Source: Kineothrix sp. MB12-C1 (GTDB taxonomy: Bacteria > Bacillota > Clostridia > Lachnospirales > Lachnospiraceae). Taken from it: a stretch of DNA of 64,000 bases. The notes under the pieces were generated by a model, which saw only the letters and a program-made list of their open reading frames with translations, made no database searches and was not told the origin of the DNA. The position numbers and the translations under genes were made by a program. The stretch is from positions 2,542,001-2,606,000 of the forward strand of contig NZ_CP132957.1 in the NCBI RefSeq assembly GCF_030863805.1. Reading direction: 5' to 3'. The first letter of the stretch is position 1. Each line of letters opens with the position of its first letter. Positions 10,095 through 18,764 of this stretch are shown here, piece by piece.

Positions 10095-10123
10095 TTGACA
10101 GAAATTTATACAAGTAATATAAT
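10095..10123 (+). promoter_or_regulatory. Consensus sigma-A promoter of the arabinoside operon
   Basis: TTGACA, 17-bp spacer, TATAAT: a perfect match to the vegetative consensus, about 430 bases before the solute-binding protein start. A strong promoter of this kind is expected to need a repressor; the palindrome at 10135 and the LacI gene in the operon fit that. Confidence 0.85.
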
Positions 10124-10550: not shown

Positions 10551-11891
10551 ATGAAAAGAAAAGCATTAGCGACTTTATTGACTTTAGCGATGGTAGCTAC
10601 GCTTGCTGGATGTAATACGGCTTCCCCGATGGCACAGGAGGAAGAGCCACAGGCTCAGGAGGTGCAGGAGGAAGCAGCAAAAGAAAGCTCTGAGGAGCAG
10701 AACACCGCAGTGCAGGCAGAGGCTGAACCGATAACAATTCAGTTCTGGAATGCATTCACAGGTACGGATGGAGATGTTCTTCGTGAAATCGTAGATCAGT
10801 ATAATGAAGAAAATGATAAAGGAATTACGATAGAAATGGATATTATGCCAGCGGCCAGCCTGGAAGAAAAGTTGCCGGCAGCCATTGCGTCTAAGACGGC
10901 TCCAGCATTAATTATCAGAGGTAACTTCGATACGGCAACTTATACGAATAATGGAATTATTTCTCCGCTCGATGACTTCTTTGAAGTAACAGGAACGGAT
11001 AAGGGCAATTTCAATGAAGCTCCCATTGAAGCATTACAATATAATGGAAGTCAGATGATGATTCCTATGCAGGTGCATTCCACATTTTTATATTGGAATA
11101 AAGAGCTTTTCGAAGCAGCAGGATTGGATCCTGAGACTCCTCCTGCCACATGGGATGAAGTAGCAGAATATGCGGGCAAAGTTGCTGACCCTTCAAGAAA
11201 AATATATGGGGTGGGCTTCCCTATAAGCGGTGCTCCCAGCTATTTCAACGCAATGTTTAAAGCAAATGGTGGTGATGTATTCTCAGAAGATGGAACGAAG
11301 TCGGTACTCGATAGTGCTGAGAACTTGAAAACACTCGAATACATACAGGGACTTGTGAAGGAAGGATATGCGCCGGTAGGTTCTACAGGTGCGGATACGG
11401 ATAACTTGATGTTGGCAGGGCAAATGGGAATCTATTGCAGCGGACCGTGGTTAATCAATGGATTACGGGAAGCGGAAATTGATTTCGGAGTAACGGGAAT
11501 GCCTGCAGGTGATGAACGTGCAGCAGGAGTGATCGAGGTACAGGGCTTCGCTGTTACTTCCACTTCCAGCGAAGCGGAAAAAGCAGCAGCTTATGATTTT
11601 ATCGCTTATTGGAATACAGATAGAATCTGTAAAGAATGGTCCATGCGTAATGGTTTTCCTCCTTATTTGAAATCCTTGGCAGAAGATGCGGATCTTCAGG
11701 CGGACGAGATAGTAAATGCATTATCTTCTATTTCTGACTTCGGATTCTCTTTTGCACCGGGCGTGACAGTAGTAAAACAGGTGAATGGTAATGTTCTCTT
11801 CCCTATGATAGAAAATGTAGTAGCCGGCAACGATCCGCAGGATGAGTTGACAAAGGCTTCGGCAAGCATAGATGAAATCCTTGCGAAATAA
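10551..11891 (+). CDS. Sugar ABC transporter substrate-binding lipoprotein
   Basis: 446 residues, family 1 extracellular solute-binding protein. Lipoprotein signal MKRKALATLLTLAMVATLAGC with lipobox LAGC gives a membrane-anchored mature protein; residues 22-60 are an acidic Glu/Gln linker. ITIQFWNAFTGTDGDVL and later GIYCSGPWLINGLREAEIDFG are typical of carbohydrate-binding family 1 (MalE/UgpB-like). Likely ligand is an arabinose-containing oligosaccharide, inferred from GH51 and GH43 genes in the operon. Ribosome site GAAAGG upstream. Confidence 0.9.
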   Translation: MKRKALATLLTLAMVATLAGCNTASPMAQEEEPQAQEVQEEAAKESSEEQNTAVQAEAEPITIQFWNAFTGTDGDVLREIVDQYNEENDKGITIEMDIMPAASLEEKLPAAIASKTAPALIIRGNFDTATYTNNGIISPLDDFFEVTGTDKGNFNEAPIEALQYNGSQMMIPMQVHSTFLYWNKELFEAAGLDPETPPATWDEVAEYAGKVADPSRKIYGVGFPISGAPSYFNAMFKANGGDVFSEDGTKSVLDSAENLKTLEYIQGLVKEGYAPVGSTGADTDNLMLAGQMGIYCSGPWLINGLREAEIDFGVTGMPAGDERAAGVIEVQGFAVTSTSSEAEKAAAYDFIAYWNTDRICKEWSMRNGFPPYLKSLAEDADLQADEIVNALSSISDFGFSFAPGVTVVKQVNGNVLFPMIENVVAGNDPQDELTKASASIDEILAK

Positions 11892-11913: not shown

Positions 11914-12810
11914 TTGGAAACAATCAAAACATGGAAGCGGTATTGGAATAAACCGGATAAAGTAGCGTATATCTTTATGCTCCCATCCTTACTCGTGCTG
12001 CTCATCTTTGCGGTAATCCCGCTTGTAACATCGCTTATTATCAGTCTGTTCGATATGAATATATTCTTCACGGATACAGCATTTGCGGGAGTTACTAATT
12101 TTGCACGGATATTTCAGGATAAAAGGTTTTGGAATGCTTTGCTTAATACAGTAGTGTTTGTTGTTTTTGAGGTGCCACTGCAGATCGTAATCGGTCTGCT
12201 GGTGGCAAATGCCCTCGTAAAAGCAACATTTTTCAATAAGGTGGCCCGTTCTATATTTTTTCTTCCCGTAGTTTGTTCTATGGCTGCAGTAGGTATTGTC
12301 TGGTCCATTCTTTTGGATACGAATATCGGATTTGTTCCATACCTTTTGGAGCAGGTAGGTATTCATAATGCTACCTTTTTCAGAAATGCAAAGACAGCTA
12401 TGCCTACGGTAGTGGCTATGACGATATGGAAGAACTTCGGCTATACAATGTCTATCTTAGTGGTGGGGATACAAGGTATCTCAAGAAGCTATTATGAAGC
12501 AGCGGAGATTGATGGTGCAGGAAGGATGGCACAATTTTTCAGAATTACGTTGCCGCTGCTGCGCCCCACATTGGGATTTTGCATGATTACTAATACGATA
12601 GGATCCTTGCAGGTGTTCGATCAGGTATATGTGACAACACAGGGCGGCCCTCAGTTCAAAACAGAAACACTGGTACAATATATTTATAAGACAGGATTCA
12701 ATGATCCATACGATTTGGGATATGCCTGTGCACTTTCGGTTATTCTTCTTTGCGTAATACTGGTAATTTCCCTTCCTATGTATAAGAAGATGTTTATGGA
12801 CCGCAATTAA
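11914..12810 (+). CDS. Sugar ABC transporter permease (MalF/UgpA type)
   Basis: 298 residues with six predicted membrane segments (first at about 24-46, LPSLLVLLIFAVIPLVTSLII). The ABC-permease EAA loop is seen as YYEAAEIDGAGRMAQFFRITLPLL. TTG start with GAGGTG upstream, 22 nt after the binding-protein gene. Forms the membrane channel with the next permease. No ATPase gene is present in the operon. Confidence 0.92.
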   Translation: METIKTWKRYWNKPDKVAYIFMLPSLLVLLIFAVIPLVTSLIISLFDMNIFFTDTAFAGVTNFARIFQDKRFWNALLNTVVFVVFEVPLQIVIGLLVANALVKATFFNKVARSIFFLPVVCSMAAVGIVWSILLDTNIGFVPYLLEQVGIHNATFFRNAKTAMPTVVAMTIWKNFGYTMSILVVGIQGISRSYYEAAEIDGAGRMAQFFRITLPLLRPTLGFCMITNTIGSLQVFDQVYVTTQGGPQFKTETLVQYIYKTGFNDPYDLGYACALSVILLCVILVISLPMYKKMFMDRN

Positions 12811-12905: not shown

Positions 12906-13748
12906 ATGAATAGAAAAAACAAATACGGCGTTACACCGGCCGGATTATTAAAAATGGTGATTATGCTGGCGATGATTGCCGTAGTACTATTCCCGTTAAT
13001 ATGGCTTGCGGCAGGTTCCCTCAAGGTGGAGAAGGAAATTATAGGATATCCCCCTTCATTGCTTGGGACCAAGTACACCTTAAAGTCATTTCAGCGGATA
13101 TTTAAAACAATACCGATGGCAATCTATATTAAGAATACGGTAATCTTTGCCGGAGGGGCGACCTTCTTATCGGTAATCTTCGATTCCATGACAGGATATG
13201 CTTTTGCAAGACTTGAGTTTAAAGGGAAAAATCTATTGTTTATGTTAGTGCTTATGACGATGATGGTACCTTTTCAGGTAATGATGATCCCGTTGTTTTT
13301 AGAGTCCAACTTTTTGGGGCTGCTGGATACCTATACAGGGCTTATATTACCCAAAGCGACGTCAGCTTTCGGAATATTTATGATGCGTTCTTATTTTGCT
13401 GCATTGCCCAGAGACCTGGAAGAGGCGGCGAGAGTGGATGGCATGAGTGAGTTTGGGATATTTACGAAGATTATGTTTCCCCTTGTACTGCCGGGTGTTC
13501 TAACACTCACTATCTTTCATTTGATGCAGAACTGGAATAATCTTTTATACCCTCTTATGATGACCAGTAGTACGAGAATGAGAACGTTGTCTGCGGGACT
13601 TGCGCTTTTTGTAGGAGAGCATGCAACGACTTACTATGGTCCGCAGCTTGCGGGAGCGCTACTCTCTATTTTGCCGCTGCTTATTATTTATATTTTCTTC
13701 CAGAAGTATTTTATTGCCAGCGTGGCGACGAGTGGACTGAAAGATTAG
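12906..13748 (+). CDS. Sugar ABC transporter permease (MalG/UgpE type)
   Basis: 280 residues with about six membrane segments (first at 14-36). EAA loop LPRDLEEAARVDGMSEFGIFTKIMFPLV. Second half of the permease pair; the family normally couples to an MsmK/UgpC-type ATPase, which must be supplied from elsewhere in the genome. ACGGAGAA lies before the ATG. Confidence 0.92.
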   Translation: MNRKNKYGVTPAGLLKMVIMLAMIAVVLFPLIWLAAGSLKVEKEIIGYPPSLLGTKYTLKSFQRIFKTIPMAIYIKNTVIFAGGATFLSVIFDSMTGYAFARLEFKGKNLLFMLVLMTMMVPFQVMMIPLFLESNFLGLLDTYTGLILPKATSAFGIFMMRSYFAALPRDLEEAARVDGMSEFGIFTKIMFPLVLPGVLTLTIFHLMQNWNNLLYPLMMTSSTRMRTLSAGLALFVGEHATTYYGPQLAGALLSILPLLIIYIFFQKYFIASVATSGLKD

Positions 13749-13781: not shown

Positions 13782-15293
13782 ATGCATAAAGCAAGAATTG
13801 TAATAAATAAAGACTATAAATTAGGTACCATTGATGATAGAATTTATGGTAGCTTTGTAGAACATATGGGAAGAGTGGTATATTCCGGTATCTATGAACC
13901 GGGTCATCCCGAAGCGGATGAAGACGGATTCAGGAAGGATGTACTGGCTGCGGTAAAGGAAGCGGGCATCACGAATATTCGTTATCCCGGAGGTAATTTC
14001 GTGTCCTGCTATCATTGGGAGGACGGAATTGGGAAAAAGGAAGAACGTCCCAGGAGATTGGAACTGGCATGGAGAGCGATAGAAACGAATGAATTCGGCA
14101 CTGATGAATTCATGAAATGGTGTGAAAAAGCAGGAACAGAACCGCTGCTTGCGGTGAATCTGGGTACGAAGGGATTGGAGGATGCCGTTCATTATTTGGA
14201 ATACTGCAACTTCCCTGGAGGGACTTCCTATAGCGATAGAAGGATTGAAAATGGCAGAGTAGAACCATATAATGTGCGTATGTGGTGTCTTGGAAATGAA
14301 ATGGATGGACATTGGCAGCTTGGACATAAAAGCGCGAGTGAATATGGACGTCTGGCGAGGGAAACGGCTAAGGCGATGAAGTTGATCGATCCGGACATCG
14401 AGCTCGTATCTTGCGGAAGCTCGCTAAATACAATGGCTACATTTCCACAGTGGGAAGAAGACTCGCTGGAAGAAACATATGAGTATGTAGATTATATCTC
14501 TTTGCATCAATATTTTGATGGGCATGAGAAAACGACGGAAGAATTCCTGGCGCAGGCGGATGCTATGGATGAATATATCAAGATAGTCATCGCGGCCTGT
14601 GACTTTATAAAAGCGAAGAAACGCTCCGATAAAACGTTAAATATTAGTTTTGATGAGTGGGGAGTATGGACAAGGCATTCCGATGAAACGGTTCGGGAAT
14701 GTGATATCAGCCCATGGCAGCAGGCACAGCCGATTAGCGAGATGATATACAGCTTTAAGGATGCTCTGCTTTTTGGAGGGATGCTTTTAGCAATTCTTAA
14801 AAATGCGGATAGGGTCAAAGTCGCATGCCAATCTCTTCTTACGAATATCAGTGCGATGATTATGACTGAAAAAGGCGGTGAGATGTGGAAGCAGACGATT
14901 TACTATCCTTTTGCGGATGTTGCTCAGCTCGGTCATGGAGAGGTACTTGACAGCCGTGTTATCTGCCCGGAATATGCAACGAAGGATAAGAAGTCGCATG
15001 TTCCGCTGATCGATACAGTTACGGTGAAAAATGGCAATGAAATTGTTCTGTTTGCAATCAATAGAAGCAGTGAAATAAGCATGGAAATAGAGATGGAGTT
15101 ACAAGGTTTTGAAGTGGAAGAAGTGATAGAACACAGAGTTCTCTGTGCGCAGGATATTGAGGCCGATAATAGTGTGATGCATAATCTCGTTAAAACAAGT
15201 ACGAGAGAAGATGTTTCATTGGAAGAAGAGAAGGCGGCCTGTGTATTGGATAAACTCACATGGAATGCGATACGCTTCAGAATTAAAGAATAA
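13782..15293 (+). CDS. abfA: Alpha-N-arabinofuranosidase, GH51
   Basis: 503-residue intracellular glycosidase that releases terminal alpha-L-arabinofuranose from arabinan or arabinoxylan oligosaccharides. TIM-barrel GH51 hallmarks: YPGGNFVSCYHWEDGIG, acid/base Glu173 in CLGNEMDG and nucleophile Glu292 in FDEWGVW, positions that match characterised GH51 enzymes. No signal peptide, so it acts on imported oligosaccharides. AGGAGG upstream of the ATG. Contains the C-terminal beta-sandwich domain. Confidence 0.95.
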   Translation: MHKARIVINKDYKLGTIDDRIYGSFVEHMGRVVYSGIYEPGHPEADEDGFRKDVLAAVKEAGITNIRYPGGNFVSCYHWEDGIGKKEERPRRLELAWRAIETNEFGTDEFMKWCEKAGTEPLLAVNLGTKGLEDAVHYLEYCNFPGGTSYSDRRIENGRVEPYNVRMWCLGNEMDGHWQLGHKSASEYGRLARETAKAMKLIDPDIELVSCGSSLNTMATFPQWEEDSLEETYEYVDYISLHQYFDGHEKTTEEFLAQADAMDEYIKIVIAACDFIKAKKRSDKTLNISFDEWGVWTRHSDETVRECDISPWQQAQPISEMIYSFKDALLFGGMLLAILKNADRVKVACQSLLTNISAMIMTEKGGEMWKQTIYYPFADVAQLGHGEVLDSRVICPEYATKDKKSHVPLIDTVTVKNGNEIVLFAINRSSEISMEIEMELQGFEVEEVIEHRVLCAQDIEADNSVMHNLVKTSTREDVSLEEEKAACVLDKLTWNAIRFRIKE

Positions 15294-15360: not shown

Positions 15361-16347
15361 ATGGGTGTCACAACGAATGATATAGCAAGAATCTGCAATG
15401 TGTCGAGAACCACAGTAATTCGAGCCTTGAATGATCAGGGGAGAATCAGCAGTGAAACGAAGGAGCGAATTCTTAATACGGCAAAAGAGCTTGGGTATCG
15501 TCCTGACTTATTGGCAAGAGGGCTTGTAAAGGGCAAGACGATGTCCATAGGCGTCGTGGTGTATGATGTGAGAAATCAGTATTTTGCCCAGATGCTGAGT
15601 GCTATTGAAGAAGAGGCTCAGACGAGAGGTTATTGTGTGAATATCACCCTCCATGGAAAAGATAGGGAAAGGGAAATAGAGCTGATTAGGCGGTTGGTGG
15701 ATTATCGTGTAGACGGTCTTATCCTTTCTCCTGTTAATAAAGGGCGGGAATTCGGAAGATTCCTGAAAAGTCTCAACACCCCCCTTGTTGTGGTAGGTAA
15801 TCGAATATCTGACACAATTCCTTTTGTGGGAATTGATGAAAAGAAAGCGGCAAAGGAGGCAGCGCAAAAGATACTCGCCTCAAGTTATGAGCGCGTTGTA
15901 TTTGTATGTCCTCCACTTGCCGAAAAGGAAATGGGAAATATATATACCCATGAGCAGCGTTTAGAAGGATTTGAAGAGGTAATGAAGAATTATCCGGGGA
16001 TAGAGAAGGTTGTAATAGGAGCCTTCGGTTATGAACAGGAGGTACTCGGATTGCTTGAAAATAGTAAGAAAAGAACTGCTTTTTTCTGTTCCGGAGATAT
16101 CTTCGCATTGGATATCATAAAGGTATTAAAACGGGCAGGTAAAAGGGCCCCTTCGGATTATGGAATTATGGGATTTGATAATTTGGAGCTTTTAGAATAT
16201 ATGGAACCCAGCCTTTCTACCATCCATAACTCGGTGCCGGAGGTGTCGAGAAAAGCAGTCGAGCTGTTGTTTGACAAGATGGAAGGAAGGGAGATTCCCT
16301 TGAAAACCTATGAGAATTATCGGCTGATTCATGGAAATACGATTTAG
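15361..16347 (+). CDS. LacI family transcriptional regulator
   Basis: 328 residues. N-terminal LacI helix-turn-helix (TTNDIARICNVSRTTVIRALNDQG, hinge helix ETKERILNTAKELGYRPDLLAR) and a periplasmic-binding-like effector domain. Encoded inside the arabinoside operon, so it is probably the local repressor acting at the palindrome at 10135 and responding to an arabinose-derived sugar. GAGGAGGGG is a very strong ribosome site. The next gene begins 14 nt later. Confidence 0.92.
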   Translation: MGVTTNDIARICNVSRTTVIRALNDQGRISSETKERILNTAKELGYRPDLLARGLVKGKTMSIGVVVYDVRNQYFAQMLSAIEEEAQTRGYCVNITLHGKDREREIELIRRLVDYRVDGLILSPVNKGREFGRFLKSLNTPLVVVGNRISDTIPFVGIDEKKAAKEAAQKILASSYERVVFVCPPLAEKEMGNIYTHEQRLEGFEEVMKNYPGIEKVVIGAFGYEQEVLGLLENSKKRTAFFCSGDIFALDIIKVLKRAGKRAPSDYGIMGFDNLELLEYMEPSLSTIHNSVPEVSRKAVELLFDKMEGREIPLKTYENYRLIHGNTI

Positions 16348-16361
16348 TAAAGAGGATGGCT

Positions 16362-18764
16362 ATGAACAGAGAGAATTTTGTAAAGACAGAGTATAATATA
16401 CCATTAATAGAAAAGCGAGCGGACCCGTATGTATACAGGCATATAGACGGGTCCTATTATTTTACAGCGTCGGTACCGGAGTATGACAGGATTATACTAA
16501 GAAAGAGCGATACCATCAGAGGGCTGGCACAGGCAGAGGAACGGACTATATGGAATTGCCATGAGAATGGGCCTATGAGCTGCCATATTTGGGCACCGGA
16601 GATACATTTTATAGATGGTGCATGGTACATATACTATGCGGCGGGTGAGAAAGAGGATGTTTGGAAGATACGTCCTTACGTTCTTAAGTGTGAAGGCGAT
16701 CCGATGGAGGATGAATGGCAGGAATTAGGGCAGATGAAGCCGGCACAAGGGGATAAATTTTCCTTCCAAGACTTCTCTCTCGATATGACCGTTTTTGAAC
16801 ATAAAGAGAAGAGATATTGTGTTTGGGCAGAAAAGGTAAATGTGGGCAAGAAAATATCCAATCTGTATATTGCGGAGATGGAAGCGCCTGATAAATTGAA
16901 AACAGCCCAGATTCTTCTTGCTGCGCCCGATTACGGCTGGGAGAGAGAAGGATATTTTGTGAACGAAGGTGCGGCTGTTATTAAGCGCGGAGAAAGGACA
17001 TTTCTTACCTATTCGGCCAGTGCCACGGGGGCATGCTACTGCATGGGGCTTTTAACGCTGAGAGAAGGGGGAGATCCCTTGGACCCGGCGGATTGGAAGA
17101 AGAGCAAGAACCCGGTACTTACAACCGATACGGTGAAAGGTATCTATGGACCCGGACATAACTCGTTTACGAAGTCAGAGGATGGGAAAAGGGATGTGAT
17201 GGTATTCCATGCAAGGCAATATGATGAAATCATAGGGGATCCTTTATATGATGAGAATCGACATGCTTATTATATGGAAGTAGCGTGGGATGAGGATGGG
17301 ATGCCGGTATTCGAATATAAGAAGAGCCGCAGACCAAATATCCTTATGCTGGTAGCAGATCATCAAGCCTTTTATGGACACCCTCGGGTGAATACTCCGT
17401 ATTTTGACAGACTAAAGGAGGAAGGCGTTTTTTTTGAGAAAACATATTGTACCAGCCCCCTTTGTATGCCTTCGAGAAAAAGCATTCTCACCGGATTGTA
17501 TCCGCACAATCACGGGCAGAGTGATAATTCCTTCGAAGTGCCTTTCGACAGCCATGAAACTTACATCGATGTATTGAAGGGTGAGGGATATCGGAGTTAT
17601 TACTTCGGCAAATATCATGCAGGTACCGGTAAACCGGAAGACTTAGGATGTGAAGGTGTGTCCTACCCCGATTACTCCAATCCGTACCATCAGAAGGAGT
17701 ATAAGGAATATATTGAACGGAACCATCTGCCGGCGGCAAGGATGCGGATTGAAAAGAATATGTGCGAAAAAGGATGGATCGATGATGTGGAAGAGGGAGA
17801 TATCTATGATTTCCCCCGGGACTTAATCAACGAGGCTCTATCGGGGGTTCTTATAGGCCCGAAAGAGAGCCACGAGGCATACTATGTGGCGGATATGGCG
17901 AAACGTCAGTTAGAAAGGATAAAAGAAGAAGGAAGCGGAGAGCCGTTTATGGTACGGGTAGATTTCTGGGGGCCTCATCAGCCATATAGCCCGGCGGAAG
18001 AATTTGCGGCGATGTATCCTCCTGAGAGCATTGAGGAGTATCCAAGCTTTTCGGATGATCTGACGGGAAAACCGGAATCCTATCACTTTGATACGGGAAG
18101 GGAAACGAGTGAGGATAGAAAATTACGCTATCCCAATTCTATGCCGTGGAGCGAGTGGCAGAAAATGCTATCCAGATGTTACGGACAGATTACGATGGTG
18201 GATGAGGCTGCCGGACAGATTATAGATAAGATTAAGGAACTCGGTATGGAAGAAGATACGCTTGTTATATGGACGGCGGATCATGGGGATGCCCTGGCCT
18301 GTCATGGCGGGCATTTCGATAAAGCCTTCTATCTGCCGGAGGAAGTGATGCGAATTCCTCTTGCTATGTCATATCCCGGCGTACTGCCTGCAGGTACGGT
18401 ATGCAACGAATTAATTACCAATGCGGATATCGCACCTACGATTGCTTCGGCAGCAGGAGGCCAATTCGAACAGAAAGTCGATGGAGAGGATATTCTTAGT
18501 ATATATAGTGAACAATCCCCTTCCTGGCGCAAATCACTATTTGCGCAGACACATGGGCATTTGGCTCCATGGAAAGCTAGAGTAGCAGTGTGGGATCGAT
18601 ACAAATATATAGAAAATAAAGGGGATATTGAGGAATTATATGATTTGGAACAAGACCCTTACGAGTTGACTAATCTGGCTTTGGATGATGAATATGGAGA
18701 GATCCTTAAACTTATGAGAAAGAAGCTGTTGGAATTGAAGGATTTGTATCACGATACTATCTGA
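16362..18764 (+). CDS. GH43-like glycosidase fused to a Cys-type sulfatase
   Basis: 800 residues in one uninterrupted frame. Residues about 15-320 form a five-bladed propeller of GH43 type: candidate catalytic Asp21 (RADPYVY), Asp141 (FSLDMTVF) and acid Glu202 (FVNEGAA). From about 323 a sulfatase begins without a linker (RRPNILMLVADHQ); C-x-P-S-R formylglycine motif is CMPSR with Cys368 followed by KSILTG; WTADHGD and C-terminal DLEQDPYELTNLA are also typical. No signal peptide. Would desulfate and debranch imported oligosaccharides in the cytoplasm. A Cys-type sulfatase in an anaerobe needs anSME, not seen here. Start ATG 16362 has AGAGG six bases upstream; ATG 16356 abuts it. Confidence 0.85.
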   Translation: MNRENFVKTEYNIPLIEKRADPYVYRHIDGSYYFTASVPEYDRIILRKSDTIRGLAQAEERTIWNCHENGPMSCHIWAPEIHFIDGAWYIYYAAGEKEDVWKIRPYVLKCEGDPMEDEWQELGQMKPAQGDKFSFQDFSLDMTVFEHKEKRYCVWAEKVNVGKKISNLYIAEMEAPDKLKTAQILLAAPDYGWEREGYFVNEGAAVIKRGERTFLTYSASATGACYCMGLLTLREGGDPLDPADWKKSKNPVLTTDTVKGIYGPGHNSFTKSEDGKRDVMVFHARQYDEIIGDPLYDENRHAYYMEVAWDEDGMPVFEYKKSRRPNILMLVADHQAFYGHPRVNTPYFDRLKEEGVFFEKTYCTSPLCMPSRKSILTGLYPHNHGQSDNSFEVPFDSHETYIDVLKGEGYRSYYFGKYHAGTGKPEDLGCEGVSYPDYSNPYHQKEYKEYIERNHLPAARMRIEKNMCEKGWIDDVEEGDIYDFPRDLINEALSGVLIGPKESHEAYYVADMAKRQLERIKEEGSGEPFMVRVDFWGPHQPYSPAEEFAAMYPPESIEEYPSFSDDLTGKPESYHFDTGRETSEDRKLRYPNSMPWSEWQKMLSRCYGQITMVDEAAGQIIDKIKELGMEEDTLVIWTADHGDALACHGGHFDKAFYLPEEVMRIPLAMSYPGVLPAGTVCNELITNADIAPTIASAAGGQFEQKVDGEDILSIYSEQSPSWRKSLFAQTHGHLAPWKARVAVWDRYKYIENKGDIEELYDLEQDPYELTNLALDDEYGEILKLMRKKLLELKDLYHDTI

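Follow-up and report, generated by a model that had tools for sequence, protein, structure and literature searches.

The fusion gene and its two catalytic domains

The stretch of DNA analysed here (the window) covers 64,000 nucleotides of Kineothrix sp. MB12-C1, a member of the Lachnospiraceae (contig NZ_CP132957.1, positions 2,542,001 to 2,606,000), and contains a gene in which a glycoside hydrolase of family 43 (GH43) and an S1-type sulfatase are joined in a single open frame. An original prediction, made from the sequence alone, had described the product as a cytoplasmic protein with both catalytic sites preserved and had proposed that it processes sulfated arabino-oligosaccharides. The parts of the gene are the following (window positions):

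16362..18764, plus strand, GH43-sulfatase fusion gene, 800 codons in one open frame (alternative start at 16356)
16395..17306, plus strand, GH43 (GH43_26-type) domain, residues 12-315, with catalytic D21, D141 and E202
17301..17303, plus strand, in-frame ATG (codon 314) after a GAGG-like stretch, just 5' of the sulfatase domain, a candidate internal start
17334..18740, plus strand, S1-type sulfatase domain including the SGSH_C part, residues 325-793
17463..17477, plus strand, CMPSR motif with the formylglycine precursor C368

The frame can also be opened at ATG 16356; ATG 16362, which has a better-spaced AAGAGG, was preferred by judgement. The Pfam profile of GH43 (PF04616) matches residues 12-315 along practically its whole length (E 3.5e-56, profile positions 2-288 of 288), and that of the sulfatases (PF00884) matches residues 325-699 (E 3.9e-43, positions 1-300 of 301), followed by SGSH_C at residues 650-793. 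Since only nine residues separate the GH43 and sulfatase profiles, the linkerless join predicted near residue 322 was correct. Structure prediction, one of the checks proposed at the outset, gave two complete folds in the AlphaFold model (predicted TM-score, pTM, 0.75; the local score pLDDT falls to 62 in the loop preceding D141). These are a five-bladed propeller for GH43 and a sulfatase fold with its C-terminal subdomain, the latter also found by Pfam and by structure comparison. The protein thus carries two catalytic domains in one chain, as glycosidase-sulfatase hybrids do.

In the GH43 half, D21, D141 and E202 align to D168, D283 and E344 of AtAbf43C, the catalytic triad mutated in that enzyme (PMC12493170). 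The structures of AtAbf43C (9nxj/9nxg) and SaAraf43A (3akf) are among its four best sequence matches in the PDB, and both enzymes are named as GH43_26 in the same paper. By sequence, then, this half is of the GH43_26, exo-1,5-alpha-L-arabinofuranosidase type. Unlike the window protein, SaAraf43A (3akf) and AtAbf43C (9nxg) carry a CBM42 and no sulfatase, and AtAbf43C is likely extracellular (PMC12493170). We have also looked for changes specific to the fused proteins in the GH43 active site, but only six positions differ and none of them is catalytic.

For the sulfatase half we have used an alignment of 42 rows (A1), 34 of which span the ligand positions checked. D333, H334, P370, R372, K417, H419, H539, D640, H641 and K654 are identical in 34/34 of these rows, and position 368 is Cys in 32/33 and Ser in the remaining one. 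We take these residues, C368 included, to have the metal and sulfate ligand roles of an S1 formylglycine sulfatase, whose C/S-x-P-x-R motif and ligand set are therefore present. H651 is less constant (His in 30/34 spanning rows, missing from the other four relatives). K417 and H419 align with the GKWH of the sulfatase 5g2v, and the best fold matches of this half in the VIA-align structure comparison are carbohydrate sulfatases. No NCBIfam cut-off was reached by the sulfatase half. The exo-2S-iota-carrageenan S1 sulfatase PsS1_NC (6pt4, 6ptk) shares 28% identity with it; that is a single-domain entry acting on a red-algal glycan.

The N terminus of the fusion protein has no hydrophobic stretch (the top 15-residue hydropathy within the first 65 residues is 0.21, in a hydropathy scan rather than a signal-peptide program). 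The protein is probably located in the cytoplasm, as had been supposed from the apparent lack of a signal peptide.

Genomic neighbourhood and sulfatase maturation

The fusion gene is the last of an apparent operon that begins with an ATP-binding cassette (ABC) importer:

10095..10123, plus strand, promoter-like site TTGACA-17-TATAAT (12/12, pattern match only), upstream of the operon
10551..11891, plus strand, sugar-binding protein of the ABC importer (SBP_bac_8)
11914..12810, plus strand, ABC permease (BPD_transp_1)
12906..13748, plus strand, ABC permease (BPD_transp_1)
13782..15293, plus strand, GH51-type alpha-L-arabinofuranosidase ArfA (Alpha-L-AF_C; NCBIfam NF051901, 692.6 bits against a cut-off of 625)
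15361..16347, plus strand, LacI-family regulator

A tRNA-Gln follows 3' of the fusion gene. The predicted association with an importer and a GH51 enzyme thus holds, and the same order (binding protein, two permeases, GH51, LacI, fusion) is found in Hungatella effluvii, and in H. hathewayi as far as the locus reaches; the Candidatus Pelethocola contig starts just before its fusion gene. Elsewhere the Kineothrix genome has araA and a second locus of arabinan type. The latter contains two GH51-type genes and two GH43 genes, one of which is a stand-alone GH43_26, and no sulfatase match was found there. A further sulfatase match (L023/L024, C1:2981545-2982481) is split into frames of 211 and 280 aa and is perhaps a broken gene. 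H. effluvii has another locus of related content (L116:7825-13960), where a GH127 beta-L-arabinofuranosidase and the binding protein of an importer accompany a stand-alone GH43_26 (65%) with an Asp-Met-Thr sequence in common with the fused clade.

The lack of an anaerobic sulfatase-maturing enzyme (anSME), together with a lack of sulfatase activity, had been named in advance as a finding that would speak against the prediction. One protein of the Kineothrix genome, with radical SAM and SPASM domains, exceeds the anSME cut-off (398.4 bits versus 349.45), and no match to the formylglycine-generating enzyme (FGE) was found there. An anSME over the cut-off is present in 4/4 genomes with the fusion gene, as against 29/98 relatives (the Kineothrix genome included). 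It is not specific to the fusion, since one is also present in both of the Clostridium genomes where a relative of the sulfatase stands alone; an anSME is to be expected of an anaerobe with sulfatases, so that its presence allows the model without proving it. The anSME gene of Kineothrix lies in another locus (L111, C1:1545000-1556000), in a row with ABC permeases, a lacto-N-biose phosphorylase and another sulfatase; by its gene content this locus looks like a system for the uptake of sulfated host-glycan units.

The fusion of H. effluvii (L029:4029-6431) has SMPSR in place of CMPSR, a Ser in an otherwise Cys-type family, and its genome encodes an anSME along with one FGE-family match. According to a review (PMC3920027), FGE acts on Cys and anSME on both Ser and Cys, with which the SMPSR motif agrees, and sulfatases of the Ser type are typically periplasmic.

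Distribution and origin of the fusion

Scanned by pattern for the sulfatase half, our genome collection yielded 58 loci. Such a scan finds only relatives of this sulfatase, and unrelated GH43-sulfatase hybrids with other sulfatase subfamilies are outside its reach. The search for the same architecture, also proposed originally, was productive, with three other genomes carrying the fusion gene, one of them in interrupted form. The fusion of H. effluvii (L029) has 800 aa and 73% identity over its whole length (73-74% in either half), and that of Candidatus Pelethocola (L031), also of 800 aa, has 65% (70% and 63% in the two halves). In H. hathewayi DSM 13479 one fusion gene is split over L085:5051-5300 and L030:4850-5060 by approximately 70.5 kb, inserted a few codons before the codon of the catalytic Cys. 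One end of the insert carries ParA/ParB, DUF6017 and Bro-N/KilAC genes and the opposite end a pair of phage-type integrases; judging by these terminal genes, it is probably an integrative element. What seemed to be a second fusion in genome G066, a 792-codon open frame, proved to be an ordinary 483-aa sulfatase reading frame with open frame upstream.

Searching with the whole protein gave a match in 44/98 relatives (again including the Kineothrix genome), and no other row spanned both domains among the matches listed. The sulfatase half is matched in 12/397 genomes of the family at 1e-45, with a fused frame in two (Kineothrix and H. effluvii) and the interrupted one in H. hathewayi; in 3/392 genomes of the order at 1e-80, only that of Kineothrix being fused; and in 1/398 genomes of the phylum, Kineothrix itself (the three genome sets overlap). 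Among 72,556 plasmid records 22 match at 1e-60, and none covers 80% of the query, so that no plasmid-borne fusion was found at that threshold. Among the genomes sampled in this way, the fusion is a rare one that occurs in the Lachnospiraceae only.

The four fused genes group together in both trees (26 rows for GH43 and 75 for the sulfatase; 95/97, with an SH-aLRT of 99 in the quick tree) and in the same inner order, Pelethocola outermost, then the window, then the two Hungatella. Since each half forms one clade, a single fusion event behind all fused genes fits the trees. Stand-alone GH43_26 proteins stop one to seven residues past a conserved P-V-F stretch, and for most sulfatases that stand alone a start is possible a few residues ahead of an RPNI-like stretch, so that the loss of a stop codon across a short intergenic gap would give about the observed join. 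Bacillus sp. SD088 (L084:3976-5701) has neighbours of this kind, 50 bases apart: following GH51, a GH43_26 gene adjoins a separate, decayed sulfatase whose middle is missing, though this GH43 is on another branch. The opposite strand has another GH43_26, 2.3 kb further on. We could not support the idea that this sulfatase was lost for want of a maturation enzyme, since the genome has no anSME match but an FGE is present.

Raw nonsynonymous change among the fused genes is 0.17-0.26 per site in both halves, versus a synonymous change of 0.73-0.87 that is near saturation; at the junction (46 codons) the contrast is weaker (0.21-0.31 versus 0.53-0.79). These values give a strong signal of purifying selection in both domains.

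The stand-alone relatives of the sulfatase in A1, part of the 58 loci, come from Chloroflexota, Asgard-type archaea, Armatimonadota, Clostridia and others, and keep the checked ligands except H651. An ABC permease gene is directly upstream on the same strand at 17/58 loci; import followed by a predicted cytoplasmic desulfation is in that sense a recurring arrangement, although 15 of the 17 belong to one Chloroflexota group and the cases are thus not independent. Within the DNA around the 58 loci, which for several of them is under 5 kb a side, a GH43_26 relative is also present at four, namely those of H. effluvii, Pelethocola, H. hathewayi (L085) and Bacillus sp. SD088. In genome G160 (L094:282-2991) a GH43 adjoins a distant sulfatase relative (35-37%), divergently oriented and 289 bases apart. 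Among the neighbours of stand-alone relatives (26 proteins at 12 loci) we found further sulfatases, transporter parts, two-component systems and a Gfo/Idh/MocA oxidoreductase, and one locus with GH2 and GH78. Because of these neighbours the sulfated sugar of this sulfatase family need not be arabinose, and the assignment to arabinose comes from the GH43_26 half and GH51. Three Lokiarchaeota loci (L039, L045 and L060) have two copies each of this DHQA-type sulfatase, and desulfation in these archaea may deserve a look.

Proposed function and its alternatives

The reading that we favour, at somewhat better than an even chance, is that of a bifunctional cytoplasmic enzyme acting on imported sulfated alpha-L-arabinofuranose oligosaccharides, with desulfation preceding the release of arabinofuranose. 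The importer would take in small sulfated oligosaccharides bearing alpha-L-arabinofuranose, and the host anSME would convert Cys368 of the C-terminal sulfatase into formylglycine. The sulfatase would then take off a sulfate carried on or beside the arabinofuranose, most likely at the non-reducing end or adjacent to it; this would unblock the deep exo pocket of GH43_26, by analogy with the enzyme P36 described below, and the N-terminal domain would free the exposed arabinofuranose. The GH51 ArfA might deal with whatever side chains or links are left. This scheme presumes that each of the two domains is active, and on one common substrate.

The scheme has its nearest characterised parallel in P36 (FA22250) from Formosa agariphila, a GH78|S1_25 hybrid of the ulvan pathway, in which the sulfatase domain desulfates a terminal Rha3S and the GH78 domain then removes that rhamnose (PMC8511951). 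The shared substrate and the order of steps that we propose are modelled on it. P36 contains a rhamnosidase and belongs to a marine Bacteroidete, whereas the window protein is of GH43_26 type and is found in a Lachnospiraceae next to an ABC importer; other sulfatase structures also match its sulfatase half better than P36 does.

Several observations weigh against our reading. The fusion is interrupted in H. hathewayi, and Bacillus sp. SD088 has GH43 and GH51 intact beside a decayed sulfatase. As noted, anSME is not specific to the fusion, and the Ser-type protein of H. effluvii apparently lacks a signal peptide, at odds with the periplasmic location described as typical (PMC3920027). The mutual placement of the two domains is unsure in the model (pTM 0.75). 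No adaptation of the GH43 half to a charged substrate is evident, and it resembles an ordinary GH43_26. The 26 proteins scanned next to stand-alone relatives include a single GH43, no other arabinofuranosidase and several further sulfatases. Finally, no sulfated arabinofuranoside of gut origin appeared in the literature searched, from which most subscription journals were absent.

Some of these facts would suit a different arrangement, in which both domains are active on different molecules, or on different sugars of one larger glycan, and the fusion mainly fixes their equal co-expression in the cytoplasm. The tandem sulfatases around stand-alone relatives (and the locus with GH2 and GH78), the ordinary character of the GH43 half and the second arabinan-type locus of Kineothrix with no sulfatase match in that stretch are all in keeping with it. 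We consider it rather unlikely, given that the fused clade stays in the company of GH51 and a single importer wherever the upstream genes are readable (three genomes) and that P36 is a precedent for consecutive steps. It is improbable that the fusion is partly a translational arrangement, giving a separate sulfatase from an internal start at codon 314 besides the full product: the in-frame ATG codons of the window (314) and of Pelethocola (315) do stand behind GAGG-like stretches, and GTG 319 of H. effluvii behind GAGGAG, but the purine stretch is also what one would get from the codons for Asp-Glu-Asp-Gly, a common GH43 stretch, and H. effluvii lacks the Met.

A slightly smaller chance is left for the second domain being a phosphodiester or phosphonate monoester hydrolase of the formylglycine superfamily. 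Phosphonate hydrolases typically have Tyr and Thr in place of the sulfatase Lys and His, whereas K417 and H419 are invariant here, and the closest folds are those of carbohydrate sulfatases. As for a chance fusion or a decaying gene without function, the interrupted copy of H. hathewayi and the decayed sulfatase neighbour of Bacillus sp. SD088 would speak for it; full-length copies in three species already contradict it, both domains show a strong signal of purifying selection with their catalytic residues kept, and we give it hardly any credence. The same conserved copies rule out the frameshift or assembly error that the original prediction had named as a refutation.

The observations of that prediction hold in every particular that was checked, and its interpretation is partly supported. 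A sulfated arabino-oligosaccharide is a plausible substrate, of which the arabinofuranose side is backed by the GH43 type and the GH51 neighbour; the position of the sulfate and the sugar that bears it have the sulfatase fold as their sole basis.

The pairing of GH43 with a sulfatase is not new as such, because a paper on red-algal Planctomycetes, which counts 34 and 21 multi-domain sulfatases, reports many GH43 and GH117 domain hits inside sulfatases (PMC4807772), and we have dropped the claim that none is in print. That paper reads these hits as distant relatedness. S1 sulfatases fused to GH10, GH32 and GH29 are described from Kiritimatiellales and others (PMC6388578). Like the window protein, these multi-domain proteins are S1 sulfatase-glycosidase gene fusions (PMC6388578, PMC4807772); they are marine, those of Kiritimatiellales are mostly predicted to be exported, and the comparison is by description only. 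The literature searched contained neither a hybrid of GH43_26 type that lacks a signal peptide and belongs to an ABC-importer operon in Lachnospiraceae nor a description of the use of sulfated arabino-oligosaccharides by this bacterial group. In a paper on Maribacter and arabinogalactan, sulfatases were expressed equally on all four substrates, with no link to arabinose (PMC11036162), and PMC10405439 yielded nothing on sulfated arabinan.

The conservation of such a two-enzyme fusion is good evidence of linked steps, and so suggests that gut-type Lachnospiraceae feed on a sugar that is sulfated and contains arabinose. Our wider proposal, more tentative and to our minds somewhat short of an even chance, is a dedicated intracellular pathway of anaerobic Lachnospiraceae, in which a single protein couples desulfation to the release of arabinose from an undescribed sulfated alpha-L-arabinofuranoside; this substrate may be dietary, algal or a host-conjugated plant glycoside. 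If true, the marine glycosidase-sulfatase hybrids would have in this fusion a Gram-positive counterpart, one that is probably cytoplasmic.
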